DNA of 64,000 bases from an uncultured Planctomycetales bacterium (lineage in GTDB: Bacteria > Planctomycetota > Planctomycetia > Isosphaerales > Isosphaeraceae). Location of the stretch: assembly GCA_903926465.1 (NCBI GenBank), contig CAIYJE010000087.1, positions 1-64,000 of the forward strand, in the 5' to 3' direction. Position numbers and translations under genes: made by a program. The notes below the pieces were generated by a model, which searched no databases, was not told the origin of the DNA, and worked only from the letters and a program-made list of their open reading frames with translations. This document shows positions 6,730-40,287 of this stretch, piece after piece. Within the stretch, counting starts at the first letter, position 1; each line of letters opens with the position of its first letter.

Positions 6730-8994
6730 TTGAACGCCTGGGACGTGATCTGGTTCCTGTTGCTCCAGGGGATGGCTCTCTGGGCCGGTCTACGCGCAGC
6801 CCGCTGGTTCATTCCGAGTGGCGATCCTCTGAGTTATCTCGTGGCCGCTGCGGTACTAAGCTGGACCTGGGTTACGCTTGGACTGCAAACTTTGGGGTTT
6901 CTCGGCTTCCTGGAGCGGGCACCACTTCTTGGCTGGTGCATGGTGGGGGGGCTGCTTTCGCTGGGCTTGACCGCATTCTCGGCCCGACCAGGCTCTACCG
7001 CGTGGAGGGACGACCTTAGCCCTGAGCCGCGCCCGCAACCACTACTGATGATCTTGATCTCTGCGTTGCTGCTCTGGCTCGGATTGACCCTGACCGCTCG
7101 ATCACTGATGAGCCCGGTGAAAGTCGTCAGTGATGGACCCATTTATCACCTCTACTTCGCTAATCGCTGGTGGGAAGAAGGACGAATTCACTGGATTGCC
7201 AGCCCGTTCGGAGAGTCGGCCGCCACGTACTTCCCGGCAAACGGCGAACTCTGGTTCACATGGCTCATCACCTCTTGGGGCGGAGATCGGCTCGCCAGAA
7301 TCGGCCAGTTACCGTTCCTGGTCCTGAGCTGTATAACCCTTTACGGACTGATCCGCCGGCTCGGTTGCTCCATCGCCGCCAGTTACCTGGCCGTGGCCTG
7401 GTTTGCCACCCTGTTGCCCCTGGCGCTTTTTTCGCTTGAGCCCAATGTCGATACGATTTTCCTGGCCGGCTACCTGGTTTCCGTCTATTTCGCCTATCTC
7501 TACCTGAACGAAGAGGCGAATCCCCGATTACTGATTCTAAGCGGCCTGGGGGCCGGCCTAGCACTGGGAACAAAACCAACCGCTCTGGTGTTCATCCCTC
7601 CCTGGTTATTACTGCTTTCGTATCTGGTCCTCAGAACGCGATCCTCCAGCCCTCGATGGACCAGCCTACTGGCATTATGGGCCGCATGCGTCCTACCTAG
7701 CGGCGTTTGGATGATTCGGAACCTGGCAGTGACAGGGAACCCCTGGTACCCACTGCATCTGGAACTGTTTGGCAGGGTCTTGCTCCAAGGCTGGTACCCT
7801 CGTTCGGCCATGTGGAAAAGCCCGTTTTTTATCTCGGTCCGAAACTGGCGTGCGCTGGTGGATAACCTGATTCTTGTGCTGGATGCACGGCTTACCCTGA
7901 TCTGGGTGGCTGCCGCACTCGGACTCTGGGGAATGGGGCTGAGTAAGGCCACGCCCATCAAGCGACGGTGGATCGTCGGTTTCTGCCTGCTTGGACTCTT
8001 GAATGTAGCCCTCTACTGGCTGGTCATTCCCTACCGTACCCAGCAGCGTTTCATGCTTCACGGAATCGCGTTACTCACCGTTCCGCTGGCAGCGCTCTTT
8101 TATCGCTGGACCAGCCTGAGATGGATCTGCCTGGGGTTGTTGGCCATTCACCTCCTGACGAATATGAACTGGCCGTTTGCTGCCGCCGATCAGATTCCCC
8201 CGTGGAGCCTGGAAAAGTTGATTGCGCCCGTGGGCGATTCCATGATCCGAATCCCGCTGAACGCACAAGATTGGGTATCGGTGATCCAGCCTCCCAGGGA
8301 CCTGCTTGAGGGAATGCACCAGTCTTACTTTCGAATGCGGTTGGGGCTGGGCTTCATCTCGCTTGTAGTCGCCGCGCTCTGGGTCTTCTCCAAACGCTCG
8401 CTACGGGCCAGATTTCTTCTGGTCGCCGGAACTTCAGGACTGGCGCTAGCCGCAGCCTGCGGCTGGATTGGACTCTGGCTTGGCACCCTGAACTATCAAT
8501 ATCCAGAATTTGAGTATTACCCAGCCTGGACCTTTCTGGAGGGGATTTCGCCCAGCCGTGGTTCTCGTATTGCCTACGCAGGTACAAATTTACCCTACTA
8601 CCTGCTAGGCAAAGGGACCAGGAACCAGGTCTCCTACGTCAATATCGACGAACATCCCACCTGGCAAATGCATCATTACCAGCAAGCCGCACTGGCAGCG
8701 GGCGGCCCGAAGCTCTGGGATTCTCCAAGACCGGGTTGGGACAGGATGAGTCCCGATATCTCGGCCTGGTTAACGAACCTCCAGAATCAGAGGGTTGAAT
8801 TCCTGTTCGTCGCCCAGGCGAATCCGGCCGAGGGGGAATTCAATTGCGTCGATCCGGAAAACTTCCCGATTGAGAGGGTCTGGGCCGACCAGCATCCCGA
8901 CCGCTTCAAGTTGATCTATGGTGGAAACCTGACCGACCCTCGAACCCATTCACGCACCGATGGTCGCGTTCGAATTTACCGAATCTTGCCTTGA
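6730..8994 (+). CDS. Large polytopic membrane protein, GT-C glycosyltransferase-like
   Basis: A 754-residue protein starting at TTG 6730, with GGAG (6719-6722) eight bases before it. About a dozen hydrophobic segments alternate with short loops. The first long loop after residue 120 reads VVSDGPIYHLYFANRWWEEG, placing an acidic residue where GT-C enzymes (GT39/GT83-like, using polyprenyl-phosphate sugars) carry their catalytic Asp. The membrane part is followed by about 170 extracytoplasmic residues. It may transfer a sugar to a lipid or protein on the outer face of the membrane, but the acceptor is unknown. It overlaps no confirmed neighbour; the next gene begins 88 bp later. Confidence 0.75.
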   Translation: MNAWDVIWFLLLQGMALWAGLRAARWFIPSGDPLSYLVAAAVLSWTWVTLGLQTLGFLGFLERAPLLGWCMVGGLLSLGLTAFSARPGSTAWRDDLSPEPRPQPLLMILISALLLWLGLTLTARSLMSPVKVVSDGPIYHLYFANRWWEEGRIHWIASPFGESAATYFPANGELWFTWLITSWGGDRLARIGQLPFLVLSCITLYGLIRRLGCSIAASYLAVAWFATLLPLALFSLEPNVDTIFLAGYLVSVYFAYLYLNEEANPRLLILSGLGAGLALGTKPTALVFIPPWLLLLSYLVLRTRSSSPRWTSLLALWAACVLPSGVWMIRNLAVTGNPWYPLHLELFGRVLLQGWYPRSAMWKSPFFISVRNWRALVDNLILVLDARLTLIWVAAALGLWGMGLSKATPIKRRWIVGFCLLGLLNVALYWLVIPYRTQQRFMLHGIALLTVPLAALFYRWTSLRWICLGLLAIHLLTNMNWPFAAADQIPPWSLEKLIAPVGDSMIRIPLNAQDWVSVIQPPRDLLEGMHQSYFRMRLGLGFISLVVAALWVFSKRSLRARFLLVAGTSGLALAAACGWIGLWLGTLNYQYPEFEYYPAWTFLEGISPSRGSRIAYAGTNLPYYLLGKGTRNQVSYVNIDEHPTWQMHHYQQAALAAGGPKLWDSPRPGWDRMSPDISAWLTNLQNQRVEFLFVAQANPAEGEFNCVDPENFPIERVWADQHPDRFKLIYGGNLTDPRTHSRTDGRVRIYRILP

Positions 8995-9082: not shown

Positions 9083-11071
9083 ATGCGGCTGACGTTGCGA
9101 ACCATGCTAAGCTGGCTGGACGATACGCTTCCACCAGAAGAAGTCCGCCTGATCGGCCAGCAGGTCGATGACAGTGAGTTCGCTCGTGAACTCGTGGACC
9201 GGATCAAGCGCGTGACGCGTCAACGGCGGCTCACCGTCCCGCCATCCACCGGTCAAGAAGCCTCAGACCCAAACCTGGTGGCCGAATACCTGGACAACGC
9301 AATGCCACCCGGCGAGGTTGCGGACTTCGAGCGGGTTTGCCTCAAATCCGACGTCCACCTTGCGGAAGTTGCCAGCGCACACCAGATTTTGAGCCTCATT
9401 GGACAACGCGCCAAGGTTCCCACGGACAGTCGTAACCGGATTTATCGGCTACTTCCCGGTGACGGCAACGACAGCACGCGAACTCGAACCGATCGCCAAG
9501 AGGTCCGAACCGAGCCAGTCACCTCAAGCACCACATGGCCACTCTCATCAACGGAGCCGGCCGGGAACCGAAATCTCTGGGCTGCACTCTGCGCATTACT
9601 TCTGCTTCCGCTGCTTGGCTGGTCGACCTGGTACAACCTCTCGTCCATCTCTGCGCCCGTGGCGGAACCGATTGTGGACCTCCAGACCCTCGCGGCCCGA
9701 GTCGCCAAACCCGTCGAACGGCCCATGGCTGGCCTGAACCAGCCACCCGCATTGCCAATGAACCCAGCCCAGGCGAAACAACCGGAACTCGTACCCAAGC
9801 CTGAGAGCACATCCGTTGCCACCATTCCGCAACCGGCGGCCATGGCGGAATCTGCCGACGGCAGCAAACCTGGCCTTAACACCCCAGCCAGCATCAATCT
9901 TTCTGCCCAGACCAAAGCCGGTACAAAACCGGATTCTGGGCCGACACCCAGCACAAGCCTGGTCCAACTTGTGAAAACCACAGGAATCTGCCTCGGCCGT
10001 TCCGGAACAGAGGATGAACCCTGGGCTCGGATTGAGCCGGGGACTGAAAACCTTCTGGGTCATCAATTCCTGAACCTTGAGCCGTTCCGCTCCGAACTCA
10101 CCGTTGGGACCCATATCCTGAGGCTGATTGGTGGAACATCGCTCCAACTGTACAGCCAGGAAAAGAACGGTTCCCCGCAATTGAAGCTTGAGCGCGGTCG
10201 GATTGTCTTCCACTCAGGAAAAACACCGGTGGTGCTTCCAATCTCGGAAGAATCCGCCACGATTCCATTGAACGTCCCAGCCAATGCCACTCTGGCGATG
10301 GAACGGGGTACCACCTGGCAACCTGGCCAGAAGACCGGTAAACGCCCAATCACCTTGTATATGGTAGAGGGAACCGCGGAGCTTGGATCCGAGGGTACGG
10401 AACGGGGTCACGCACTGAAAGCCGGAACCCGGATCACGTTGGGCCCAGACGGAGAGATCTTGGGTGAGGAACCGGCAATTGCGCCAGGTTGGGCCGTAGA
10501 AGTTGAACCGACCGTGATGGAACAAGAGGAGGGAAAACAGTTCAGTCGGTCGTTCAAACCAGATCAGCCACCGCTGACAAGCCTGGTGGAGGCGGCATCC
10601 TCTGACCGGCTTGAAATCCGACGTCAGGCGTTCCGGGGCCTGGCGGCAACCCACCACATCTCTTTGCTGATCAACGCAATGGGCGCCGAGGGAGAGCCGG
10701 AAACCCGGCAGATGGCCATAGATTCGATGCGTGATGTTCTCGGTGACGGGGCCGTTGCCGAAAAGAAAATCCTTGAAGAACTTGAACGTCAAGGAGAGGG
10801 CGGGAACTGGGCCTCGATTGTGCTGAGCCGTCTCAGGGGCGTTGATCCGGTAGCTGCCGATAACCGTGAACTCAGGACCGAACTGCTCAAAGAGCTGGAA
10901 GCGAAAGATCTGACGATCCGCGAACTTGCTCTCGATAACCTCCGCGAGGTCACGCGGCGCGGAGATAACCTGGGCTACGACCCCGACGACCCGCGAGAGA
11001 ATGGAGTTCGAGCCTGGAGAGCGGCCCTTCTATCAGAACCGGACTCCAGGAAACTGCCAGGCAGACCATGA
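9083..11071 (+). CDS. Membrane protein with anti-sigma-like repeats, FecR-like and HEAT-like regions
   Basis: A 662-residue protein starting at ATG 9083 behind a strong GGGAGGTGG site; upstream codons in the frame overlap the previous gene. The first about 115 residues contain two related helical units, LSWLDDTLPPEEVRLIGQQV and VAEYLDNAMPPGEVADFERV, similar in layout to the cytoplasmic domains of anti-sigma factors but with no zinc ligands visible. One transmembrane segment follows (LWAALCALLLLPLLGW, about residue 160), then a Pro/Ala-rich linker. A beta-rich region around residues 300-450 resembles FecR domains, and the C-terminus (about 490-640) looks like HEAT repeats. It could sense an envelope signal or organise the giant proteins encoded downstream. 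That role is inferred from layout only. Confidence 0.8.
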   Translation: MRLTLRTMLSWLDDTLPPEEVRLIGQQVDDSEFARELVDRIKRVTRQRRLTVPPSTGQEASDPNLVAEYLDNAMPPGEVADFERVCLKSDVHLAEVASAHQILSLIGQRAKVPTDSRNRIYRLLPGDGNDSTRTRTDRQEVRTEPVTSSTTWPLSSTEPAGNRNLWAALCALLLLPLLGWSTWYNLSSISAPVAEPIVDLQTLAARVAKPVERPMAGLNQPPALPMNPAQAKQPELVPKPESTSVATIPQPAAMAESADGSKPGLNTPASINLSAQTKAGTKPDSGPTPSTSLVQLVKTTGICLGRSGTEDEPWARIEPGTENLLGHQFLNLEPFRSELTVGTHILRLIGGTSLQLYSQEKNGSPQLKLERGRIVFHSGKTPVVLPISEESATIPLNVPANATLAMERGTTWQPGQKTGKRPITLYMVEGTAELGSEGTERGHALKAGTRITLGPDGEILGEEPAIAPGWAVEVEPTVMEQEEGKQFSRSFKPDQPPLTSLVEAASSDRLEIRRQAFRGLAATHHISLLINAMGAEGEPETRQMAIDSMRDVLGDGAVAEKKILEELERQGEGGNWASIVLSRLRGVDPVAADNRELRTELLKELEAKDLTIRELALDNLREVTRRGDNLGYDPDDPRENGVRAWRAALLSEPDSRKLPGRP

Positions 11072-11425: not shown

Positions 11426-14400
11426 GTGCCTTCTCGTTTCCTGGGGATCGTCATCGGGACGATCTTTGCCTGGTTTGGTGGCTGGGGATTTGCAGACGAC
11501 CGGGTTCTGAACCCACCCGCATTTGTTTCGGAGGGTGGCCAGAGTTCCCCCCGTCCCGATGTCGCCACGTATGTTGTGGTTCCAGCACCGGCCGACATGG
11601 ATGCCTTGCTGGAACGGCTCGCTCGGCCTGATTTCGTGGTACTAGACTGGGCACGTTATTCCAAGCTTAAAGGCGTTGCAACCACTCCAGGGCGCCCAGA
11701 CCAGGGGACCGAGAGCTCGATTCGTTCGGTCTTGTTGCGCGGGGATATTGGCGATTCGGATGCACGACTTCGGCTCGTCCTGACGGTTCACCAAGCGACC
11801 GAAGAGGCACAAATTGTTCCAATTGGCCTCAACGACGTCTTCATCCAGAGTGCGCGGGCTGGGGATAAAGATCTTCTGGTCAGCAAACTTCCCTCCGGAG
11901 AATGGGGGGTCACTCTGAAGCAGGCTGGCGATCTGGAGATTGAGATTGTTTTTGAGGCCAGGGTTCTTTCTCGTGGGTTTGAACGAAGGTTGACGTTGCC
12001 TTTCCCCGAATCGGCATCCACGGGTCTTGATGTCTGTTTCCCTGAGGCAGCAAAGGATCTTCGCCTGGGTGGCCGTTCACTGCCACTCCTGGACAAGAGT
12101 ACGGATCTTGAGGGGCGTGTTCGATGCACGACAGCCATTGGCCCTCGAGATCGGCTGGAACTTCTTTGGCTGATTTCCACCAGCGCCAACCAGTCCAGGT
12201 TCTCAGTCAACTCTGAGATGGATATGCGTGTGGAAAAGGGACTGGCCCACTGGGAAAGCGTGCACCAGGTCCAGGTTGATCGCGGTTCGATCACGGCTCT
12301 TGAGGTCAGAGTTGACCCGTTTTTCTCCGATTACAAGGTTGAGGTCGATGGCATACCGATCGATTTTGAGATCCATGAAGACTCTCGATTTCGACTCAAT
12401 CTTGGTACAACGGCCATGGCTGGAGACATCCGTAGCATCAAGGTTTTTGGATCCAGGAAACTCCAGAGCGAGAAGCCGCTTCGAGAAAACCTGAGGGGAA
12501 TCGAGTTCCCGGAAGCCGCCGCACAAGATGGCTGGCTTACGGTCAGATCTGACCGCAACATGCACGTTGAGTGTTCACCAATCAGTGGGGTTTCCGAGTC
12601 CACGTCACGATCTGGACTGCCCGCTCGCCTTCAGGCGGGATCACCTCTGCCGTCGTTTGTGTTTCGCACGCGAGAAGCCTCCTTCGATCTTGGGCTTCAG
12701 ATTGAGGCCATGCGGCCTTGGGTCTGGGTCGATAGCAGGAGCACGTTTCGCATTTCGCCCACATCCATCACGAACGACCTGTGGTTGGACTACCAGACCC
12801 AGCGGCCACGGCCACGCGAACTGATTTTGGCAATTCCGGCCAACTGGGCGCTGGATTCGATTGGCCCTGACTCGGCTATTGAGTCTACGACGGTCACGAG
12901 TGCGGGGAGTGAATCACCGGGCGGTTCTCGTTTGATCGTACAACTCAAGGAGCAGGCGAACGAGACGACCAGGTTCTCTATCCACTGTGTTTGTCGATGG
13001 TCTGGCCCCAAAGTGGGCGATGTTGTGTTTCCTTGGGTGCGGCCCCTGGAAGCGGCAACGTGGACTGGCACGACCACGGTTTACGCAACAACAGACCTTC
13101 ACGTTCAGCCGGCGCTTGATGAATCACTGGTGCGGCTCACGGAACCTTCTGAGGATCGCAAATCCGGAATATCTCAGCCTTTTGCATCGGACTATGTATC
13201 AAGATTCACGCTACAACACGTGTTACCCCCTTCCGACTTACGGCTTACGATCAAGCCAGAGACCTTGAAGGCGAGAGCCAATCGAGAGATCGAAATCTAC
13301 GTCGATCGCGCGTTGGCGACGATGCTGGATCAGGTCGTATTGACGATTGACCAGGGGATTATTCAAGTACTGGATCTGGTTGTACCCGAGGATCTCAAGG
13401 ACAACTGGGAAATTGAAGGGATTGATATCTCGCATCGAGAAGTGATTTCGCTTCCGGATTCGCCGGCAATCACCAGGCTCCATCTGGTCAGCCCCCATCG
13501 AGATCGACTGCGGTTCCGGATCCGATCTCGGTTGCCGGTACCTGCTCACGGGCTGGCCAAGGCGGCGCGCATGGTGGTTCGGCCCGTTCAACTGCAAGGG
13601 GTCACGTTCGAGTCTGACCGGGTCGAGGTTGGAGGTTCGAGCGGCTTGGAGATTGAGCCGGAAGGACGTGAATGGTACGCCAGGAACCGAGCAGACTCCG
13701 GCAGTACGACGGAACGAGATTTACCGTTCTCCAGAATTAGCCACGGACCAGACGTGGTCCCAGTCTCATTTCTGGTTCGATCGGCGTCGGTTCTCAGGTT
13801 GCCAGATGCCCTCATTTCCCGGATGTGGATCACCAGCACGCTGCTTCCAGACGACAGCGTGGGTGTGGAACTCCACGCTTTTATCGAGCAACACCGAGGC
13901 GAATTGCCAATCATTCTTCCTCCGGACTCAGCCTGGAAGGGAATTCGTGTCGGAGAATCTCCTGGCGAACTTCTGATGAGCGACCCCAAGTCAGGAACCC
14001 ACGTGATCGCGTTACCGAGACCCGAGGCTCAGAACGGATTCAGTGTGCACCTCAGTTATCTTGTTCCCCCGACCGCGGGGAAAAGCGTTCGGTGGACCCC
14101 CAGGTTTCCGAGACAGATCGAAACTCTGGAAGTTGCCTGGGAGGCACGCGTCCCAGCAGGACAGTGCGTGCTGGGCGTTCCAACCGGCTGGGAAGACGCG
14201 AATCACTGGAATTGGGACCGTAACCTGTTCCGAAGACACCCGAATCGCGAACCAGCCCAGCTCATGGATTGGATCGAGAATGGGAATTCGGTTGCCAAGT
14301 CCCAGACCGCTCAAAGCTTTGGAGTTTCACTGGCACAACCCCCCAATCGCGTCCTGTTCCACCTTGTGGGGAACGCCGTCAACACACAGCCGTGGGTTGT

Positions 14401-14857
14401 GAATCGCGTGGGACTGATTGCGCTCAGCTCCACAGCAATTCTGTTACCAGCCATCGTAGCGATCTTGGGTGGATTTGCCTTTTCCCGCTTCCTCGTCGTA
14501 TTTCTTCTGGCACTGGCATTCCTGGCAACACTCGGCCCCAGTGTGGTGGTGGCCCAATGCCTACAATCTGGGATTGCCGGCCTGATCTTGGCTGGCGCAA
14601 CCGCGGCAGTAACGTCTTGGAGAAACCCGACCACTTCCACCGGCGGATCTACGGTGATCCAGGCCCCCAGCCGAGACACGGCGGCCAGACGGTCAACGGC
14701 AACGATCCCAGCTTCTGATAAAGCCACTGCTCAGCACAACTCTGGCGACTCGACACTGATCCGGCCACGTTCAGAGGCTTCTCCGGCCCATCTAGAAGAG
14801 CCAACCGTGCTGCCTGGGATGCAGGAACGACCGGTCTCCAGCATCCAGAAAGGCTGA
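11426..14857 (+). CDS. Giant secreted or membrane protein, copy 1 of a shared architecture
   Basis: A 1143-residue protein starting at GTG 11426. The N-terminus has a signal peptide or anchor (FLGIVIGTIFAWFGGWGFADD). An N-terminal helical motif follows (PADMDALLERLARPDFVVLD), then about 900 residues that look almost entirely beta-rich. Two hydrophobic segments near the end (ALSSTAILLPAIVAILGGFA and LILAGATAAVTS) would fix it in a membrane with a polar Ser/Thr/Pro-rich tail. I recognise no enzyme motif. The same layout recurs twice in the next gene, four bases downstream. The organisation points to a periplasmic or outer-surface structural role, but this is inference. Confidence 0.8.
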   Translation: MPSRFLGIVIGTIFAWFGGWGFADDRVLNPPAFVSEGGQSSPRPDVATYVVVPAPADMDALLERLARPDFVVLDWARYSKLKGVATTPGRPDQGTESSIRSVLLRGDIGDSDARLRLVLTVHQATEEAQIVPIGLNDVFIQSARAGDKDLLVSKLPSGEWGVTLKQAGDLEIEIVFEARVLSRGFERRLTLPFPESASTGLDVCFPEAAKDLRLGGRSLPLLDKSTDLEGRVRCTTAIGPRDRLELLWLISTSANQSRFSVNSEMDMRVEKGLAHWESVHQVQVDRGSITALEVRVDPFFSDYKVEVDGIPIDFEIHEDSRFRLNLGTTAMAGDIRSIKVFGSRKLQSEKPLRENLRGIEFPEAAAQDGWLTVRSDRNMHVECSPISGVSESTSRSGLPARLQAGSPLPSFVFRTREASFDLGLQIEAMRPWVWVDSRSTFRISPTSITNDLWLDYQTQRPRPRELILAIPANWALDSIGPDSAIESTTVTSAGSESPGGSRLIVQLKEQANETTRFSIHCVCRWSGPKVGDVVFPWVRPLEAATWTGTTTVYATTDLHVQPALDESLVRLTEPSEDRKSGISQPFASDYVSRFTLQHVLPPSDLRLTIKPETLKARANREIEIYVDRALATMLDQVVLTIDQGIIQVLDLVVPEDLKDNWEIEGIDISHREVISLPDSPAITRLHLVSPHRDRLRFRIRSRLPVPAHGLAKAARMVVRPVQLQGVTFESDRVEVGGSSGLEIEPEGREWYARNRADSGSTTERDLPFSRISHGPDVVPVSFLVRSASVLRLPDALISRMWITSTLLPDDSVGVELHAFIEQHRGELPIILPPDSAWKGIRVGESPGELLMSDPKSGTHVIALPRPEAQNGFSVHLSYLVPPTAGKSVRWTPRFPRQIETLEVAWEARVPAGQCVLGVPTGWEDANHWNWDRNLFRRHPNREPAQLMDWIENGNSVAKSQTAQSFGVSLAQPPNRVLFHLVGNAVNTQPWVVNRVGLIALSSTAILLPAIVAILGGFAFSRFLVVFLLALAFLATLGPSVVVAQCLQSGIAGLILAGATAAVTSWRNPTTSTGGSTVIQAPSRDTAARRSTATIPASDKATAQHNSGDSTLIRPRSEASPAHLEEPTVLPGMQERPVSSIQKG

Positions 14858-14861
14858 GACC

Positions 14862-17800
14862 ATGAGCCACCAGTTCCTCTTTCGTTCTTTGGGTCTCCTG
14901 GCTCTGCTCGCCACACTTTTCCCAGGCGCAGAAGAGGTGGGGGCTCAATCACTCAGGAAAGTCGATTCCAATCCTGTCGTGCGCCGCGTTGAGGTTCCGG
15001 CTGATCAACTACCAGCCTTGCTGCCACCCGGCACACCCATCCGGTCAATGCCGCTACCTGAATTTGATGCACTGATCGAGGAGCTACAAAAGGCGGAGAA
15101 TTCGCAACGGTTACCGGGCTCCCCGCAAGTACTCAGGGTCTGGCATCAAGCCACATTCGACGGCACTCAGCTGATTGGAACCACCGAACTTCTTATCGAA
15201 GCCTCCTCGCATGATGCTCTGATTCCACTGAATCCTTGGTCCGCCGCCGTTTCACGACCAGCAACCGGCGAAGCCACCGTACTGAGTTCAACACTAAATC
15301 AGAGCTTCATTGCGATCCAGCCCGGTCCACAGCAGACGATCAAGTTCCGTTGGACGGCCGTGGGCCGAAAGGTTGGAGACAATGTCCTGCTCGAATTGTT
15401 GCTGCCAGACCACCTTCCAGCTTCGCTCGAACTCGACATTCCTGATCGATTCCGAATGGATGAGGGAAAGCGGCCCTCCCATGGTCCGCTAAAATCCAAA
15501 ACCACCAAACATCAACACTGGCAAATCGATGATGCCCGCGGCGTGGTCGCACTTCAGTTTCGGCCAGCGGACTCGCAAGACTCTGGCACGCCCGGCCCCA
15601 TTCCATCGGTCAGCGGTTTCACCAAGGTCATTCACACGGCCAGCGAAAACAGCTGGATGGCCGACTGGCAGATCGATGCGCCTCATCTCGCGGAGTTTGA
15701 ACTGCGTCTGGATATCGATTCCAGGATCGAGATTGATCAGGTTCTAGGCGAATGCGTTGATGAGTTCCGCCTAGAGCACCAAAATACCGGCGCTTACCAC
15801 CTTGTGATCAAGGTTATTCCACAACCCGGCCAGCCAGACAATATTCGAATTGAAGGAAAACACCACTCATCACTTGAAGGCCCCTGGGCCGTTCCCACTT
15901 TGACAACCCACAACGCCATCTGGACTGGCGGCGAATACCAGGTTGAAATCGATCCAGGCGTTCGCGTTGAATCGATCGATGAGAAACACTCCGTCAGAAT
16001 GCCAGTTGCGGATCAAACCTCAGGCCGAAAAACGCAGACTGAAAACGCCCTCTTCCAGTTTGAAAGTACAGGGACGGGCACTCCAGCCCTACTGTTGCTG
16101 CAACGCAGAAACCCGGAACGCAACGGCGAGCTTTTTGGCGCAGTCAAGATCGACTCCAACGAGATCCGATTCGAGGCCAGACTGACCTGGCTCACCCCAC
16201 CGCATGGCGGAGATCCACTCAACCTGGTGCTGGACCCCGGTTGGACAGTCGATCATTTCCAGATAGTTGCCCTCGATGAACCAACCACCTGGTCGGTCAA
16301 AGGGTTAAGGACCGATGGCAGTCAGGAAATCGACGCGCTCGTGCCGGTTTCTGTACCAGTTCGATCTCCAATGACTGCGGTCATCCGCGGACGTGGAACC
16401 GTACTCGATCGTTCTGAACTACGTCCCCCTCGGATTCAGACCCCAGAAGTGCGATGGCAGGACGAAACCTGGTGCATGGTCGCTGCGTCTCACCTGAGTA
16501 TTCGACCCGTTCGGGTCCAGGGCGCGAGGTGGATCGATCCATCCATGGCATACCGTGAACTTTCTACGTTTCTTCAGGGATGGACCGAGCCGATATCGAA
16601 GATCGCCTGGAAATCCTCTTCATCGGAACAGATTCCCACCTTTCAGGTTGGAAACCGTTCTGAGCAATCAACAGTCACAGCCTGGGTTGTCACCAACTTC
16701 GGAACGACCACACCCCACACGGAGTGGTTTTTTCAATTCAATGGAATGCTGGGAAAAGAACATCTTGGTTTCAGATCCAACGTACCACTCACAGGCGAAA
16801 TCTCGGGTCAACTGGTCGCCTCACATCACCATCAGGCCGTTTCCGTCAACCAAATTCATGGTGATGCAGCCGGTCAGGTTGGGCCGTCCTCCGCATTCCA
16901 GCTTCGTGTTGATATCCCTCTGGAGTTTCGGGGCGAATCTCAACTTCTGTTACGCGTGGCACTTCCTCCTTCCGTCACACCTGAAGGGGTGATTGCTCTG
17001 CCCGCGCTTGATCCCGAAACATGGGGCGATCGATACGTGCTGCTGCACGCGGAGCCCGGTTTCCGCCTGGAATCGACTTCCAGCGGACTCCAGAAAGTCG
17101 ATCCTCAGACCATTTCGCAAGAACTCGGCCGGGTGTTCAGCGGTGAGCAATTGTCCTCGCTGATCAAGTCTGACCGGGTCTCACTTCAAGACGCCTATCG
17201 AATTATCGATGCAAACTCAAGCTTGAATGCGATTTCCCATCCACTCACAAAGGCCGGGCAGGCGGGTGTAATCGAGGAAGCGGAACTCCTGGAAAGCCTG
17301 CGTCCGGATGGTCAACTGGAAGCGGAACTGGCACTGACCTTTCGGACCGATGATCACGCAGCTCTGGAGATTCAACTGGGTGCGCAAGACTACCTGGTGG
17401 ATTTTCTGGTCAATGAAGTCCGGACGCCTCCGAAAATCGAGAACGGACGCCTGCGGGTCGAACTGAGCAAACTTTACCGCGTTGTGGATGGACTTTCGCA
17501 TCTCAGGCTACGGTACACGAGGCCGGCACAGCTTGCCGCCTCTGCGAATCAATGGAAATCGGCCTGGCCAGGCTTTTCTTATCCATGTCTGACCATGCGA
17601 TGGTGGCCAGCGTCCGCAACGGAAGTTCGGTCTGAGGATTCACCCCAACGATCTCGGGTTGCAACACGAACTGGAAACTTCGTTCGTGAGGTACTAAACC
17701 GCTGGCAGCCCAATCGATCCCACGAGCCGTCCTGGTCAAAACTTGAGGAACGATTTCAGCAGGCCTATGATCCCACTTGCACGCTGGGTGAGATGCTGCT

Positions 17801-20800
17801 TCGGATTGATAGGCCTCAGGCACCGATTGTTATTGATACAACGGCAATCCGATTCTTGGGCTTACGCTATGGGTCTCGCCCGTTGTCAACGGCTGGGCCA
17901 GACAATTTGCCTGGGCTTGCGAACTGGCTACGGAGCTGGGGATTGGCGGCCATCACCAGACCACAAGGCACACTGGTTACCAGTCTACAAATTGCGAGCC
18001 AGTACAACTCTGACCCAACCTGGCTAGAAACGAATCTGAGAACTGCGGTCCAGCAACGTTACGAAGCTCGACTTCGATGGGTGAGCGCATCATCGTGGCC
18101 GTCGCTGGGAAATGGCCCCCCGATTGATCTCGAGCATGGCCTGATGCCGACCAGGAGTCTAGCCGACAGTCTGATCCAGTCTGGCAATGAGTCATTGAAC
18201 CCAGGAGTTGCGGAACCAACCGGATCCTCCAGGATTCTTGTTCCACTCATTCTCGGCTTGATGATTGCCACGCTGGGGTGGTACCGAGGCTTTTCAAGAA
18301 GCAGTCGAATCGTGCTTAGCCTGCTTGCGATTGGCCTCGGAATCTGGTTCCTGGCAGCTCCTACACTGAGCGACAACCTCAGACTGTTTCGTCAGGGACT
18401 TGCGCTTGGAGCCAGCCTTTGTGGTGTGATGATACTCTTATCACGCAGGCCACAGACAGCCATTTCGCGGGAGCAGACCCCCAATCAGCGACCAAGCTCG
18501 ATGCTCCGGCGTGCGGTCGCTCCAATGGTCATGGCTCCCTTGGTACTGACCTGGTCCGGACCTTGGGTTTCCAGGGCCGCCGATAACGTTCGAGACGAGA
18601 TCGTTGTGCTCCTACCGTACGAAAAGGTCGGGGATCAACTTATTGCACCCACACGCGTGATCATGCGGCTGGACGATTTTGAGCGGTTGCAAGAGAAGCT
18701 TCGGAAGCCGACGATCAAGCCATCGACCCTGGACCGGCCGTGCATCCGCTGGGCGAGTCATCGACTGGAACAACAGTCGGATGGACAGTTCTTGCTGACA
18801 AGCATTTTTGATCTTGATCAAACGATTTCCGGCAGAACTAACTTCGTCTGGCCATTTGGCGAGGCGCTCTCTCTGCACGCGGACATTGAAGAAAAGCCGC
18901 TCGCGATCAAGGTTGTTCCTGAGCGCAAGGAAGCCCACATTTCCGTTCTTGCAGCCACCGCACGAGTTCGGATTCAACAACTCTTTGCACAACCGGCCGA
19001 CAACACTTCGCTGACAATCCCACTCCTTCCTGTCACCACGTCGGATTTTCTGCTGGTTGGAAAGCAGGTCCATTGCAGTCTGATCGGGATGGTCCGCGAG
19101 CCTGTTCAGGCGGGTCTTCAAGTTCCACTTGGACCTGTCAATTCGCTCACGGTCAGTCCCTCTCAGGCTCCAGCAAAATTGTCTCAGAAGGATCCACTAC
19201 GGATATCGAAGGCGTTTTGGGATATCGAACCGGCCGGTGACACCCTGCAGCTCCAGCTTCGCTCGGGGACCGTTCGCGAGGGCAATGTTTCAGCCCTTCT
19301 GATCGATGGCCACTGGAATCTGATCGGGTTTCTGGGAGAGAACGCAAATCGTCAGGGACAAGTTCTGAATGTGAGCTCTACGCGTGACGGTCAGACGCGA
19401 ATCGAGTTCATCGCCGCCGATTCAATCCCGTCTCAGGTCACCCTGTGGCGAAGCTCGGATGACTCCAACGGACTTGGCCAAGAACATACACCCCCCAGAT
19501 TCCGCTGGTCTGAAGGAGAGGATTCACAACCGATCTCTGCTTATCGACTGGCTCCCTTGATGAGGCCAATCGGTAAAACCAATCAACCGACGGAGGAAGC
19601 CTCTCTGCGTTTTCGTTCTGGCTGGGGACCGATCCGGCATCCCGATTGGCCCATTCAGGCGATCACGGCCGGTTACCCAACGGCTTTTGACCAGGTCTCA
19701 TGGTTATCCCCAACGGCGGCCGAACAGACGGTTTCCGTTACCACGACCATTCAAATGCATCCGGACCGGATGGCCTTACAATTCGATGCCACTCTCAACG
19801 CTCAACGTGGGCTCATTGATCGGGTGCCTGTGAAATTGCCCGCCGATTTCCACCTGGAAAAAGCGGAAGGCTTGGATCTTACCGATGCATTCACGGACCA
19901 ACTGGACCAATTCGTTTTATGCTTTGCTCAAAAGAGTCTCAAATCTTCCTCGGTCAGGATTGAGGGCTGGATCCCTCTGACAATCGACCCGAGGGCGGCG
20001 GCAACCGAACCCAGACGCATGGAGATTCCGGTACTGAACTGGGTCAATACCACTCAAGATCCAGGATTTCTCACGGTGGAGACCGTGCCCGAGATCTCGG
20101 TGGAACTCGACAAATCTGCCGGCTTGGTGCCCGACTTTTCCATTTCTAACGGGGGATTAACCGGACTTCGCAGCCGCTATCGGATCGAACCGGGAGCGCA
20201 ACCCATACAACTGCAATGGGTGTTGCTGGGGCGCCCTTCCAGGGTCAATGTTGCCAGCCACCTGATGCTGTATCCAGAATCTGCCCAGTGGGAAGCGGAT
20301 GTTCATTATGCGATTGACCATGGACCGCTGCATCAACTGATCCTGGAGTTGCCTGGGGATTGGTCCGAACACGCGGAATTTCGAGTTGCTGGCAGCCGAT
20401 CGATTGTTCGCAAGATCACCCAGGGACATCGTACACGCGTTGAGATTCAGCTCCTGGAACCATGCTGGGGCGAAGCACAACTCAGTCTACGCTCAGAACT
20501 TCCAAGGACGGCGGCTCCTTTCAGCTTCCCGGACATCACCCCGCTCGGACTTGGAAAAGTCGATACGTATATCGCCTGGAGTGACTTCACTGGACAGAAT
20601 CTAGCCGCCGAAGGCTCTTCAGGAATTCAGCCGGTTGAAGCCAGTCGATTCCAGGATCGAGCACCTTCGCTTGGCAGTGCAATTCATACTCACGCTTACC
20701 ACGTACTTCGAAGCGGATGGACGTTACGTGTTCGCGAACCACTGAAAGATCAGGCGACAAAGCAATCACAATCATGGATCACACGTGTGGAACTTACGGT

Positions 20801-21809
20801 TGCTCCAGACGGATCCTCCCTTGGTACCACACGCGTTGAATCTCGAAATGATCGCACGGATAGTCTGGTGCTTGATGTTCCCGATGGCACCACCTTTCTT
20901 GGGGCAACCGTGAATGGAAGGTGGGTGGCCTGCGCCTGGCTTGCAAAGGATCGGGTGATCATACCGACCGGGACCGAAACCCGATGGGACATTCAGGCTT
21001 ACTGGTCCAGAGCAGCAGGGACCAAGGCAAAACCAATCTCGCCTCAGGTACTTCCGCCACTCCCCGCAGTTGATGATCTCGTCTTTTCCGCAAGGCTACT
21101 CTCAACGCAACAACTCCAGCTCACGGCTCTTCAGGGAAACCTCGGTCAGGTAAACCCATCCGATTTCTTCACCAGGGAGTTGCAGGCCAAGATCGGTCAG
21201 ATCCAGGATACAGCCGCTTCCCTGGATCGCAGCGACGAAGAATCCAGAGAGCTTTTCCTGGCAGACCTTGTTGATTTTGAACTGGAACTCCGCGAAGCCG
21301 AGCATCAGCTTGGATCTGGTGTCCTGATCGCGGACGATCCAGAGGTGGCCCGTAGCCCTGAATTCCACGGAGACCTTTTGCAGAGATGGAGCCAGGAACT
21401 TGAAGAGAGCCTGGCCACCTACGGGCTAGACTCGCTCTTGATCGAAGCGAGAGTCCAGGCCGGAATGGAGCAGGGGGGTAAGCAAACCCGAAGGCCAGCC
21501 ATACCTCGAAGAGTCTCACCAAGCCAAAGGCCCATGCTTCCCGGACAGCATCAGCCATTGTATTTCCAGGGGCGCACCTCATTCGAAAGGCTGCAGCCCG
21601 GGATTCGCCTGACAGTGGAACAGGCTCAACCCGGCTCCATGATTACCTCTGCCGCCCTGGACCACTGGTTTCAGCTCGCCTTACCACTGGTGGTTCTGAT
21701 CATTTCAACTGCGGCCCCCAAACGTCTTCCCTTGAGGTTGCTCGGAATGTTGCTCGTTGCGCTCGCCTGGTGGGCTGGACAGGGCTGGCCTCAAATCCCG
21801 CTTCTCTAA
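14862..21809 (+). CDS. Giant protein: two fused copies of the same architecture
   Basis: A 2315-residue protein four bases after the previous stop. The N-terminus has a signal peptide (LGLLALLATLFPGAEEVGAQ) and a helical motif MPLPEFDALIEELQKAE, then a long beta-rich region. Hydrophobic segments at about residues 1124-1200 resemble the membrane end of the preceding protein. Immediately after, residue 1214 starts a second signal-like stretch (MLRRAVAPMVMAPLVLTW), followed by RVIMRLDDFERLQEKLRKP, a second helical motif, and another beta-rich region. A final membrane helix pair lies close to the C-terminus. The order suggests fusion of two former genes. No ribosome binding site precedes internal Met1214 (nt 18501). 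No function is recognised. Confidence 0.82.
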   Translation: MSHQFLFRSLGLLALLATLFPGAEEVGAQSLRKVDSNPVVRRVEVPADQLPALLPPGTPIRSMPLPEFDALIEELQKAENSQRLPGSPQVLRVWHQATFDGTQLIGTTELLIEASSHDALIPLNPWSAAVSRPATGEATVLSSTLNQSFIAIQPGPQQTIKFRWTAVGRKVGDNVLLELLLPDHLPASLELDIPDRFRMDEGKRPSHGPLKSKTTKHQHWQIDDARGVVALQFRPADSQDSGTPGPIPSVSGFTKVIHTASENSWMADWQIDAPHLAEFELRLDIDSRIEIDQVLGECVDEFRLEHQNTGAYHLVIKVIPQPGQPDNIRIEGKHHSSLEGPWAVPTLTTHNAIWTGGEYQVEIDPGVRVESIDEKHSVRMPVADQTSGRKTQTENALFQFESTGTGTPALLLLQRRNPERNGELFGAVKIDSNEIRFEARLTWLTPPHGGDPLNLVLDPGWTVDHFQIVALDEPTTWSVKGLRTDGSQEIDALVPVSVPVRSPMTAVIRGRGTVLDRSELRPPRIQTPEVRWQDETWCMVAASHLSIRPVRVQGARWIDPSMAYRELSTFLQGWTEPISKIAWKSSSSEQIPTFQVGNRSEQSTVTAWVVTNFGTTTPHTEWFFQFNGMLGKEHLGFRSNVPLTGEISGQLVASHHHQAVSVNQIHGDAAGQVGPSSAFQLRVDIPLEFRGESQLLLRVALPPSVTPEGVIALPALDPETWGDRYVLLHAEPGFRLESTSSGLQKVDPQTISQELGRVFSGEQLSSLIKSDRVSLQDAYRIIDANSSLNAISHPLTKAGQAGVIEEAELLESLRPDGQLEAELALTFRTDDHAALEIQLGAQDYLVDFLVNEVRTPPKIENGRLRVELSKLYRVVDGLSHLRLRYTRPAQLAASANQWKSAWPGFSYPCLTMRWWPASATEVRSEDSPQRSRVATRTGNFVREVLNRWQPNRSHEPSWSKLEERFQQAYDPTCTLGEMLLRIDRPQAPIVIDTTAIRFLGLRYGSRPLSTAGPDNLPGLANWLRSWGLAAITRPQGTLVTSLQIASQYNSDPTWLETNLRTAVQQRYEARLRWVSASSWPSLGNGPPIDLEHGLMPTRSLADSLIQSGNESLNPGVAEPTGSSRILVPLILGLMIATLGWYRGFSRSSRIVLSLLAIGLGIWFLAAPTLSDNLRLFRQGLALGASLCGVMILLSRRPQTAISREQTPNQRPSSMLRRAVAPMVMAPLVLTWSGPWVSRAADNVRDEIVVLLPYEKVGDQLIAPTRVIMRLDDFERLQEKLRKPTIKPSTLDRPCIRWASHRLEQQSDGQFLLTSIFDLDQTISGRTNFVWPFGEALSLHADIEEKPLAIKVVPERKEAHISVLAATARVRIQQLFAQPADNTSLTIPLLPVTTSDFLLVGKQVHCSLIGMVREPVQAGLQVPLGPVNSLTVSPSQAPAKLSQKDPLRISKAFWDIEPAGDTLQLQLRSGTVREGNVSALLIDGHWNLIGFLGENANRQGQVLNVSSTRDGQTRIEFIAADSIPSQVTLWRSSDDSNGLGQEHTPPRFRWSEGEDSQPISAYRLAPLMRPIGKTNQPTEEASLRFRSGWGPIRHPDWPIQAITAGYPTAFDQVSWLSPTAAEQTVSVTTTIQMHPDRMALQFDATLNAQRGLIDRVPVKLPADFHLEKAEGLDLTDAFTDQLDQFVLCFAQKSLKSSSVRIEGWIPLTIDPRAAATEPRRMEIPVLNWVNTTQDPGFLTVETVPEISVELDKSAGLVPDFSISNGGLTGLRSRYRIEPGAQPIQLQWVLLGRPSRVNVASHLMLYPESAQWEADVHYAIDHGPLHQLILELPGDWSEHAEFRVAGSRSIVRKITQGHRTRVEIQLLEPCWGEAQLSLRSELPRTAAPFSFPDITPLGLGKVDTYIAWSDFTGQNLAAEGSSGIQPVEASRFQDRAPSLGSAIHTHAYHVLRSGWTLRVREPLKDQATKQSQSWITRVELTVAPDGSSLGTTRVESRNDRTDSLVLDVPDGTTFLGATVNGRWVACAWLAKDRVIIPTGTETRWDIQAYWSRAAGTKAKPISPQVLPPLPAVDDLVFSARLLSTQQLQLTALQGNLGQVNPSDFFTRELQAKIGQIQDTAASLDRSDEESRELFLADLVDFELELREAEHQLGSGVLIADDPEVARSPEFHGDLLQRWSQELEESLATYGLDSLLIEARVQAGMEQGGKQTRRPAIPRRVSPSQRPMLPGQHQPLYFQGRTSFERLQPGIRLTVEQAQPGSMITSAALDHWFQLALPLVVLIISTAAPKRLPLRLLGMLLVALAWWAGQGWPQIPLL

Positions 21810-26081: not shown

Positions 26082-28325
26082 TCAGGCACTTTCTCGCTGA
26101 AAGTGAATATCGTGGAGTTTTCGATAGAGTGCTGAACTCCGACGTAGTTCGGCATCGGTGCCCACCGTTTCGACTCGGCCATCGTTCATGAGCACGATCC
26201 GATCGACACTCTGAAGGGCGCTCAGGCTATGGCTGATCACAAAGGTGGTCCGATTTCGACAGAATTGCTCCAGAGCTTTCCGGATCAGGGCCTCATCCTG
26301 AATATCGACAGCGCTGGTGGCTTCGTCGAGTAACAGAATGGATGGGTCTCTGAGCATCACCCTGGCCAGCGCAATTCGCTGTCTCTGCCCGCCAGAAAGT
26401 GATAGGCCACGCTCGGTCAGGACCGTGTCATAACCCTGGGGAAGGCTTGTAATGAAAGTGTGCGCGTAAGATCGTTTGGCCGCGTCTTCAATCTTTTCAC
26501 GGCTAACCGAACTGCTGCCGTAGGCAATGTTTTCGGCAACGGTCCCCTCAAAAAGGACCGCATCTTGTGTAACAAAGCCTACCTGGCGCCGCAGGCTTCG
26601 TAAGGACACATCCCGGATATCCTGACCATCGATCCGGATTGAGCCGGCCTTCACGTCCCAGAATCGATCAATCAGGTTGAAGAGCGTGGATTTACCGCAT
26701 CCATTGGGACCAACGATGGCGATTTTCTCGCCGTGCCGCACACTGAGACTCAATCCCTTAAGGATCGATTCTCGCCCTTGGTAGGCAAACCAGACCTGAT
26801 CAAAGTCGATCGTTTCATGATGCCGGGCAAGGACGGGGGCATTGGCGACGTCTCGAACCTGAGGGGTCCGGTCCATCAAGCTACAGATCCGATCCGAGGC
26901 CGCCGCAGCGCGCTGGATTTTGGAATGGACGTTGGCCAGCTTACGGATGGGGTCGGACATGGCCCCCAGCATGGCGTACAACGTTAGCACGTCCTCAATC
27001 ATCATGGGCTGCGAGGCCAGTTGGAGCTTGAAAAGCCCAAGATTCAGAAACTTTGTGTGGTAAAGCACCAGATACGATCCGGAGAGCAGGGCGATCATCA
27101 CCGTGGTGATCGACAGTAGCTCCAGCACGGGATCGCTCATGGCGTCGATCTTGGCAACTTTGACGCTCTTCTTGTAAAGCGTTTTGGTTTCCAGGAAGAA
27201 ACGGCGACGCTCCTTCCGCTCCATCGTGTAAGCCTTGACAACCTTGATCCCCTGGATCGATTCCTGAAGGATCTTGTAGATGTTCGACATGCTTTCCAGC
27301 GAACGTCGAACCGCGCGTTTCATCACCTTGCCAACGCGGTAGGTTGTGTAGCCCGAAATCGGCACGATGATCAGCGTGAGCAGGGTGAGTCGCCAGTTGA
27401 ACCAAAGTGCCCCGCCAAGGCAGGTGACAATTCGGAGCGGTTCGCGAACTAGCTTGCTCAGCAGCGTGTTGAACCCCTGCGAGACAGAGTCAATATCGTT
27501 GGTGAACCGAGCCATGAGTTCGGCCGAACCTTGGTCGGAGAAGCTCTCCAGATCCAGGGCCATGGTCCGTCTGAAGAACAGGTTGCGAATATCGAAGAGG
27601 CAAAGCTGAGTAACGTCGGCCACCAGAACGTCTTGAAAGAATTGAAACACACCCTTGAGGGCAATACCCAGCATCACCACGCCCATCAGCAAGCAGAGCG
27701 TGCGGAAGCCATCGGCCGGTAGAAAACGGTAGATAAGCGGCTGAATCCAGCGAAGTCGCTGGTCTTGGTTTTCATTCTTCTTCAAATCATGTAGAAGCGT
27801 GGCGCGACGCAGTGCGAGCGAGCCGGAATCCCCTTCTCGAAACAGAGACGTTGCTTTTTCAAGCTCATCGACACGAGCCTGGGTTACCGCAACCTGAGTT
27901 CGAAGTTCTCTGGCGGTTGTGGTGGGAGAACGGGCCAGGGAGCCATCAGAGGCTGGGGTTTGGGCAATGAGTTCCTGCTCGGCCAGGCGAAGTTCACTTC
28001 GGGCCGCATCTGAAGCTTTGACCGTTTCCACGTACCGATTTTTCAGCGGCAGTACGGCGTCTCGACCTTGACCCATCAACTCTTCAACGGCGGTCGTCTC
28101 TTCGATCCGGGCCGTAAGTGAAGCGTGCTGTGTCTCGCTCTCCACCAGTTGCTTCTCAATCCAGCGCTGGCAGTCCTGGTCATAGAACAGGATCTGGAGT
28201 AGCGGATAGACGGCCCCGATGTTTCCAAACCAAAGGAGCGCAACCATCAACGCAGAGCCTATCGAGAGCCCAAACTTCCATCGGTAGGGCCACGCAAACT
28301 TCACGAGGCGGATGAAATTGTTCAT
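26082..28325 (-). CDS. ABC exporter (MsbA-like) with coiled-coil insertion
   Basis: A 747-residue half-transporter with fused membrane and ATPase domains. Start ATG 28325 is chosen because the conserved N-terminus FIRLVKFAWPYRWKFGLSIG follows at once. ATPase motifs are complete: Walker A GPNGCGKST near residue 535, Q-loop GFVTQD, signature LSGGQRQR, Walker B ILLLDEATSA and H-loop ISHSLS. MsbA-type transporters are about 580 residues. Here roughly 150 residues are inserted between helices 1 and 2 (about residues 45-200), polar and heptad-like, consistent with an extracytoplasmic coiled coil. Substrate is probably lipid, glycolipid or peptide. It is transcribed away from the glycosyltransferase cluster on the other strand. 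Confidence 0.92.
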   Translation of the reverse strand: MNNFIRLVKFAWPYRWKFGLSIGSALMVALLWFGNIGAVYPLLQILFYDQDCQRWIEKQLVESETQHASLTARIEETTAVEELMGQGRDAVLPLKNRYVETVKASDAARSELRLAEQELIAQTPASDGSLARSPTTTARELRTQVAVTQARVDELEKATSLFREGDSGSLALRRATLLHDLKKNENQDQRLRWIQPLIYRFLPADGFRTLCLLMGVVMLGIALKGVFQFFQDVLVADVTQLCLFDIRNLFFRRTMALDLESFSDQGSAELMARFTNDIDSVSQGFNTLLSKLVREPLRIVTCLGGALWFNWRLTLLTLIIVPISGYTTYRVGKVMKRAVRRSLESMSNIYKILQESIQGIKVVKAYTMERKERRRFFLETKTLYKKSVKVAKIDAMSDPVLELLSITTVMIALLSGSYLVLYHTKFLNLGLFKLQLASQPMMIEDVLTLYAMLGAMSDPIRKLANVHSKIQRAAAASDRICSLMDRTPQVRDVANAPVLARHHETIDFDQVWFAYQGRESILKGLSLSVRHGEKIAIVGPNGCGKSTLFNLIDRFWDVKAGSIRIDGQDIRDVSLRSLRRQVGFVTQDAVLFEGTVAENIAYGSSSVSREKIEDAAKRSYAHTFITSLPQGYDTVLTERGLSLSGGQRQRIALARVMLRDPSILLLDEATSAVDIQDEALIRKALEQFCRNRTTFVISHSLSALQSVDRIVLMNDGRVETVGTDAELRRSSALYRKLHDIHFQRESA

Positions 28326-28582
28326 GAAATGCCGCCGCGGATACCACGGATTGGGGCCGGCCTCCCTGCCATGCACCCAGAACGAAACCGATGTGACCGG
28401 TTTGTCGAGGGTGTTTTAGCGAACCCCGGAATTCTCGGCAAGGCGGATCCATTCCAGATCCAGCCCTGACCAGTGCGGGCCGATAACAGTTAGACAGGCG
28501 TTTCGGCTTGGCAATTTCAGACGCCTGTATTACTGTCGCGGCTCAGGATGAGCCTACACCAGAGGAACCGTCAGGAGGACGG

Positions 28583-39474: not shown

Positions 39475-40287
39475 TCAGGCTCGGGCCGCGGCTTCCCAAA
39501 CATCACCGGCCTCTGGCTCTTGCGCCGATCCGACCTGGGAACGAACCTGGACAATCCTGCCATCGTCCATCCTGGCCATCCGGTCAGCGAAGTGAAAAAC
39601 GCGACTATCGTGAGACACCACCAGGACCGACCGATCGGATTTGACGGCCGCATCTCTCATGAGCCTCATGACGGCCTGGCCAGATTCGTGATCGAGCGCG
39701 GCGGTGGGCTCATCACAGACAATCAGCCGAGGTTCATGGACGAGGGCACGCGCGATGGCCACTCGCTGTTGCTGACCGCCCGAAAGCTGAGATGGCAGAC
39801 TTCCAAGCCGGTTCCCCATCCCCAAACTGGTCAAAACTTCTCGAGCCCGTTCGAGCGCGCGTGGCCTGGGCACTCCAGCAATAATCAGAGGCACCGAGGC
39901 ATTCTCCATGGCCGTCAGGGCAGGCAGCAAATTGTATTGCTGGAACACGAACCCAATATTGTCCATCCGAAAGCGGGTTTTGGCCCCGCCCCGCATGCGG
40001 GCCACATCGGAGCCGAACACTTCAACCACACCCCCTCGGTCGCAATCCAGAATTCCAGCCACCACGGAAAGCAAGGTGGTTTTGCCACAGCCGGAAGGCC
40101 CCACCAGCATGGTCAACTGGCCTCGGTAGATGTCCCAGTCCACTCCTCGCAAGGCCAGAACCGTTTGTTCGCCTGTCCCAAACGTCTTGTTGACATCGCG
40201 AAGGCGAATTGCGACCTCGCCCTCCAACCCAGGCTCGGCCAGCACGCCGGCAACCATCTCTCGTTCGGCCGTTGAAGAATCCAGCAT
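39475..40287 (-). CDS. ABC transporter ATPase (DevA/LolD-like)
   Basis: A 270-residue ATPase with all family motifs: Walker A GPSGCGKTTLL, Q-loop GFVFQQYNLLP, signature LSGGQQQRVAIARAL, Walker B LIVCDEPTAALD and H-loop VVSHDSR. The sequence around NKTFGTGEQTVLALRGV is typical of the MacB/LolD/DevA group that pairs with FtsX-type permeases. About 25 extra residues precede the domain. It follows the permease gene by 12 bp and is followed by the HlyD gene, so the three form one export unit in the inner membrane. Confidence 0.93.
   Translation of the reverse strand: MLDSSTAEREMVAGVLAEPGLEGEVAIRLRDVNKTFGTGEQTVLALRGVDWDIYRGQLTMLVGPSGCGKTTLLSVVAGILDCDRGGVVEVFGSDVARMRGGAKTRFRMDNIGFVFQQYNLLPALTAMENASVPLIIAGVPRPRALERAREVLTSLGMGNRLGSLPSQLSGGQQQRVAIARALVHEPRLIVCDEPTAALDHESGQAVMRLMRDAAVKSDRSVLVVSHDSRVFHFADRMARMDDGRIVQVRSQVGSAQEPEAGDVWEAAARA

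Follow-up and report, generated by a model that had tools for sequence, protein, structure and literature searches.

Two adjacent genes in the window (the 64-kb stretch of DNA analyzed, from an Isosphaeraceae planctomycete) encode three homologous copies of a giant exported architecture. Gene A encodes one copy, and gene BC encodes two (B and C) in a single reading frame. Computational comparison establishes the homology of the copies, their antiquity and topology, the fusion of B and C in one frame and the presence of a signal-peptide-like segment at the junction. Homology over about 800 residues, taken together with the shared anatomy, is nearly certain. These proteins make up an unannotated, undescribed family that is conserved in a large part of a phylum whose cell envelopes are unusual.

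Organization of the A and BC genes

The two frames lie on the forward strand, separated by 4 nt, where an earlier sequence-only reading of this DNA had placed them (Table 1). Each copy has a helical motif at its N-terminal start (ALLERL, FDALIEEL and DDFERLQEKL). The C-terminal TM helices of A span residues 994–1015, 1019–1036 and 1039–1066 in the AF2 model, and those of B are predicted from hydropathy and AF2 at about 1121–1141, 1146–1164 and 1171–1195.

The cytoplasmic tail of A is modeled with low confidence. A GSDDSTAIRxR-type motif is carried by 33 of 61 tails of A homologues, compared with 5.1 expected from shuffles; the motif is conserved in almost all Isosphaeraceae A tails, where the rest of the tail is variable. 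A docking or phosphorylation site is possible. Sequences of the form S[ST]x[ILV]R, resembling this motif, are also found just before the internal signal in several BC proteins.

Table 1. Features of the A–BC locus and its upstream neighbors (window coordinates)
Feature	Position	Strand	Basis
Polytopic glycosyltransferase of PMT_2 type (GT-C), 754 aa; in Isosphaeraceae, an upstream member of the operon	6730..8994	+	Pfam PF13231, E=2.9e-10
p703: one TM between a conserved cytoplasmic domain (MRLTLRTLL.WLDDTLPP..) and a large C-terminal region	9083..11071	+	Homologues; alignment
Gene A, 1143 aa: signal peptide, tandem β-sandwich ectodomain, three TM, cytoplasmic tail	11426..14857	+	GTG start
A: three C-terminal TM helices, residues 994–1066	14405..14623	+	Hydropathy and AF2
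A: tail motif STLIR, cytoplasmic (family form GSDDSTAIRxR)	14750..14764	+	Tail motif count versus shuffles
Gene BC, 2315 aa, one frame holding two ectodomain copies	14862..21809	+	
B: signal peptide at N-terminus, residues 1–29	14862..14948	+	Sequence, hydropathy
B: ectodomain, residues about 62–950	15045..17711	+	hhalign A~B, B~C
B: three TM helices, residues 1121–1195	18222..18446	+	Hydropathy, AF2
Internal signal-peptide-like segment, residues 1214–1239, possible SPase I site VSRA/A	18501..18578	+	Sequence; family AxA enrichment; equals N-terminal signal of separate C gene in L142
C: ectodomain, residues about 1242–2087	18585..21122	+	hhalign A~C; AF2 β-rich
C: helical region past ectodomain, residues 2099–2186	21156..21419	+	AF2 helices
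C: two C-terminal TM helices, residues 2261–2283 and 2289–2305	21642..21776	+	AF2 helices, hydropathy

Homology and age of the three copies

Comparison of family profiles built from about 30 sequences each aligns all three copies with hhalign: A with B at 99.8% probability over 798 columns (A 105–932, B 96–950), A with C at 99.7% over 794 columns (A 43–915, BC 1242–2087) and B with C at 99.3% over 817 columns. The alignments are collinear, and reversed-profile controls gave 0.2–1.3%. A profile from C-type sequences only also matches the window A protein (E=4.9e-6). These results bear out the claim of the sequence-only reading that there are three copies, two of them in one polypeptide, for which the shared layout was all that it could see: as single sequences the three segments gave nothing significant in BLASTP or hhalign, and an A-only HMM from a fast alignment had no direct match to the window BC. 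At the sequence level, the A–BC link is detectable only through profile–profile comparison or through intermediate sequences. In hhalign self-comparison, every ectodomain aligns with itself when shifted by about 170–180 residues, indicating that it is built from a series of related units.

No known sequence family was recognized in Pfam and NCBIfam scans of A and BC, and the earlier reading had likewise recognized no domain; the A profile, run against PDB sequences, returned chance matches only and no relative. Viral contigs contained no relatives, an Rfam scan gave no match, and promoter and terminator counts were not above those of shuffles.

Among 99 related genomes, homologues of BC were found in 45 and of A in 49; profile searches of 294 genomes across the phylum matched A in 86 and the C part in 81. 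Nearly always, a frame of about 2100–2900 aa comes after A, whose own frame is about 1150 aa, and the arrangement of A and then fused BC is seen in many Planctomycetota families. Orthologous copies are present in the cultured genera Singulisphaera, Paludisphaera, Tautonia and Aquisphaera. In a tree of 115 ectodomains, the copies cluster by position (1, 2, 3) and not by genome, with clades that join Isosphaeraceae to other families (support 99, 100 and 99 for copies 1, 2 and 3, respectively); the few extra members of each clade come from the same position at other loci. A second paralogous A-B-C cluster, present in part of the phylum, is likewise sorted by position. This branching pattern indicates that the triplication is older than the class.

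B and C share one frame in 32 of the 34 three-copy loci of the tree. The other two, L141 and L142, have one gene each for A, B and C and supply the homologues with separate halves that the sequence-only reading had proposed to look for. Its proposal that BC arose by fusion of tandem duplicates stands insofar as the halves are duplicates and are fused, but the event is neither local nor recent: the fused state is widespread, the triplication ancient, and the split genes, which could represent either the ancestral or a derived state, may be products of secondary fission.

Several loci depart from the usual order. The second A–BC cluster, in the order 1-2-3, occurs in many non-Isosphaeraceae genomes (L098, L099, L100, L153 and the f2 genomes, provisionally labeled Planctomycetaceae). 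A 1659-aa VWA/YfbK_C protein (L159:11054-16030) precedes BC where a recognizable A is expected in one distant relative, a BatA/VWA protein (L158:11411-13306) lies immediately upstream of an A–BC cluster, and in L157 and L160 the ectodomain genes number only two, both of them encoding three TM helices at the C-terminal end. L074 and L081 seemed to have a single A-B-C frame (3548 or 3523 aa), but this was rejected as an artefact: BC measured from stop to stop extends over A, in a frame other than that of A.

Topology and the internal signal-like segment

Hydropathy analysis of about 80 homologues of A and BC gave a conserved topology, with which the AF2 models of the window proteins agree. A homologues contain a signal, an ectodomain and usually three TM helices, and BC homologues a signal, an ectodomain, usually three TM helices, a further hydrophobic segment, a second ectodomain and two TM helices. 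Because the three B helices leave the chain in the cytoplasm, the further segment must re-export C, and we consider internal re-export very likely. The earlier reading had noticed membrane helices followed by a signal-like stretch at residue 1214, and had argued that a fused chain would need to be processed or to thread the membrane several times. Three predicted helices do precede the segment, and that argument holds.

In the window, the segment reads MLRRAVAPMVMAPLVLTWSGPWVSRA/AD from residue 1214 (nt 18501). It resembles a signal peptide in its short hydrophobic core and positive n-region, and in L142 the B gene ends in three TM helices and the C gene opens with its own signal. Sites were scored within 12 residues past the hydrophobic core, with other TM helices as controls. 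A strict AxA follows 30 of 50 internal segments versus 21 of 158 control helices (Fisher p=3e-10, a value inflated by sequence relatedness), and shuffling the residues after the core gave 19.7 +/- 2.8 versus the 30 observed. The relaxed form [AVSTG]xA follows 42/50 internal segments versus 73/158 controls. For the N-terminal regions, badly placed starts included, the strict form was found in 45 of 118. The window site, SRA/A, is weaker and is not a strict AxA, which is also missing in 20 of the 50 homologues; VSRA/A is nonetheless a plausible SPase I site. Two exported proteins in one frame and separate genes in L141 and L142 are both features of a bacterial internal-signal polyprotein, and BC is probably such a polyprotein, cut after the internal signal by signal peptidase I.

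Alternatively, BC could stay uncut, with the internal segment acting as a fourth TM helix (a signal anchor) in one multi-pass scaffold that displays two ectodomains. The four hydrophobic segments between the ectodomains would thread correctly (three in, fourth out), the imperfect sites of the window and of those 20 homologues are compatible with such an anchor, and retention of the fused state across the phylum suggests that the link itself may matter. The enrichment of AxA over other TM helices of the same proteins, the signal-peptide look of the segment and the ordinary signal that starts the gene at the same position in L142 point the other way, and we regard an uncut BC as a serious but less probable outcome than cleavage.

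Fold of the ectodomains

Structure prediction, which the sequence-only reading had recommended, gave strings of β-sandwiches for both A and the C part. The AF2 model of A has a mean pLDDT of 78.5 and a pTM of 0.40, with ectodomain blocks mostly at 80–94; for residues 1116–2315 the corresponding values are 69.2 and 0.42. Foldseek searches with A returned OST-complex chains, which we take to be ribophorin I/Ost1, as the first six matches (6s7t_E, 6ezn_A, 8b6l_O, 7oci_A, 6s7o_E and 8agb_E; E 2e-9 to 1.5e-7). For the C part, integrin alpha chains lead and OST chains appear at ranks 4, 6 and 9 (E from 1e-8). Other matches include M1 aminopeptidases, ITIH1, GPI-transamidase chains, complement C5, A2M and some staphylococcal adhesins.

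The OST matches have a probability of 1.00, but they are global and loose, with TM-scores by target of about 0.24–0.37 and an rmsd of about 10 Å or more. The low scores are probably due to differing domain arrangements, and because of them the models indicate a resemblance of units rather than membership in ribophorin I. The Pfam Ribophorin_I model (PF04597) matched none of 13 genomes (G000 included) at E<=1. The view that no copy holds a recognizable domain is correct for sequence families; at the fold level, the β-sandwiches have a recognizable resemblance to those of ribophorin I and of the M1-aminopeptidase N-domain. A ribophorin-like fold would be unexpected in bacteria.

Genomic neighborhood and a model for A, B and C

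A PMT_2 GT-C homologue is found in 17 loci and a p703 homologue in 24, the window counted in each case. The p703 frame opens at 8960, and its conserved start is Met42 (nt 9083); MRLTLRT is invariant in the alignment. A Pfam scan of p703 gave only zf-HC2 and HEAT signals, below the cut-off. Its conserved cytoplasmic domain (MRLTLRTLL.WLDDTLPP... YLDN...SDVHLAEVAS.HQILSL) resembles an anti-sigma-type domain, and its C-terminal region is variable. The GT-C neighbor is not conserved: inositol monophosphatase or unrelated genes lie upstream in other families, where the gene upstream of A belongs to one cluster in six loci, inositol monophosphatase where a family was found. GT87 is upstream in two loci with the tentative label Gemmataceae-like, L093 and L101; on the L101 contig, gene sizes are mirrored around 14.7 kb in the manner of an inverted duplication, probably an assembly artefact. 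Downstream of BC in Isosphaeraceae, on the opposite strand, are genes that we take from their protein sequences to be DUF1501 and DUF1549. Elsewhere in the window, a 764-aa protein (26082–28376, minus strand) has a relative at 39475–40287 on the same strand (E 7e-64).

We propose that A, B and C are ancient paralogues in a planctomycete family of scaffold proteins, extracytoplasmic and anchored in the membrane. After its export signal, each copy would have about 850 residues of ectodomain, formed by tandem β-sandwich repeats with an M1-aminopeptidase-N-domain or ribophorin-like fold, and TM helices toward the C-terminus. Translation would yield B and C as one polyprotein in which the N-terminal signal exports B, the three TM helices bring the chain back to the cytoplasm and the internal signal peptide restarts export, now of C. 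Signal peptidase I would most likely cut after this signal, so that B and C would be made in equal amounts and assemble with A; the chance of such a hetero-oligomer is about even. In Isosphaeraceae, a machine that assembles an envelope glycan or glycoprotein might have the trio as its scaffold, working together with the operon's GT-C glycosyltransferase and p703, a single-pass protein. The neighborhood is suggestive of a link to glycans, but a glycan role is a guess and an unlikely one. The explanation as a whole could fall either way.

Another reading takes these proteins for surface adhesins or structural proteins of the ordinary giant type that abounds in planctomycetes, whose many giant genes encode mostly surface proteins (PMC5177795, PMC5352709). 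β-Sandwich repeats are typical of adhesins, and the fold matches include integrin alpha chains and some staphylococcal adhesins. A fixed complex accounts better than a variable surface adhesin for the multiple C-terminal TM helices that anchor the proteins, the constant A-B-C order, the positional orthology across the class and the conserved motif of the cytoplasmic tail, and we consider an adhesin role rather unlikely. Internal translation from the ATG at 18501, which would yield a separate C and make the fusion merely apparent, is highly improbable: in the window a Met does lie exactly where the signal begins, but the homologues have no conserved Met at the corresponding place and no stop codon interrupts the reading frame anywhere in the linker in 32/34 three-copy loci. 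A protease or protease trap, prompted by the weak matches to M1 aminopeptidases, ITIH1, complement C5 and A2M, is scarcely credible, since no HExxH or thioester (C[GL]EQ, including CGEQ or CLEQ) motif was found and the resemblance would presumably be confined to accessory β domains. A lipobox motif was likewise absent.

Comparison with known systems

At 6.9 kb, BC exceeds the 5 kb (>5 kb) that defines planctomycete giant genes, among which hypothetical surface and envelope proteins are common; the available text of PMC5177795 and PMC5352709 counts such genes and does not describe the A/BC family, its triplication or its internal signal.

The closest structural parallel is ribophorin I/Ost1, reported from eukaryotes and from TACK and Asgard archaea (PMC11417166). 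The shared features are a signal peptide and a TM anchor near the C-terminus, with tandem M1-N-domain-like β-sandwiches on the outside as a possible third; the chains taken to be ribophorin I are the first-rank fold match for A and among the top matches for C. Ost1 partners the GT-C enzyme STT3, and A and BC lie near a GT-C enzyme gene in Isosphaeraceae. In contrast to Ost1, the planctomycete proteins have no sequence-profile match, an ectodomain about twice as long and three copies. Ribophorin I has a single TM helix and a folded cytosolic ribosome-binding domain, whereas A has three TM helices and no comparable folded domain in the cytosol; the GT-C partner here is PMT_2-like and is not conserved across families. 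That A, B and C are a planctomycete counterpart of the ribophorin I part of OST, a triplicated scaffold made partly as a signal-peptidase-cut polyprotein and organizing an extracytoplasmic GT-C glycosylation machine, is quite improbable.

For the fused frame, the nearest precedent is the cytochrome b/c1 polyprotein encoded by Bradyrhizobium fbcH, in which an internal signal peptide separates a multi-TM first part from an exported second one and signal peptidase makes the cut. BC has the same plan in one bacterial frame. Whereas fbcH joins unrelated proteins, BC joins two homologous giant halves, and its cleavage is predicted from sequence. Cleavage, if it occurs, would make BC a large bacterial polyprotein that is widely conserved and is produced by way of an internal signal peptide.
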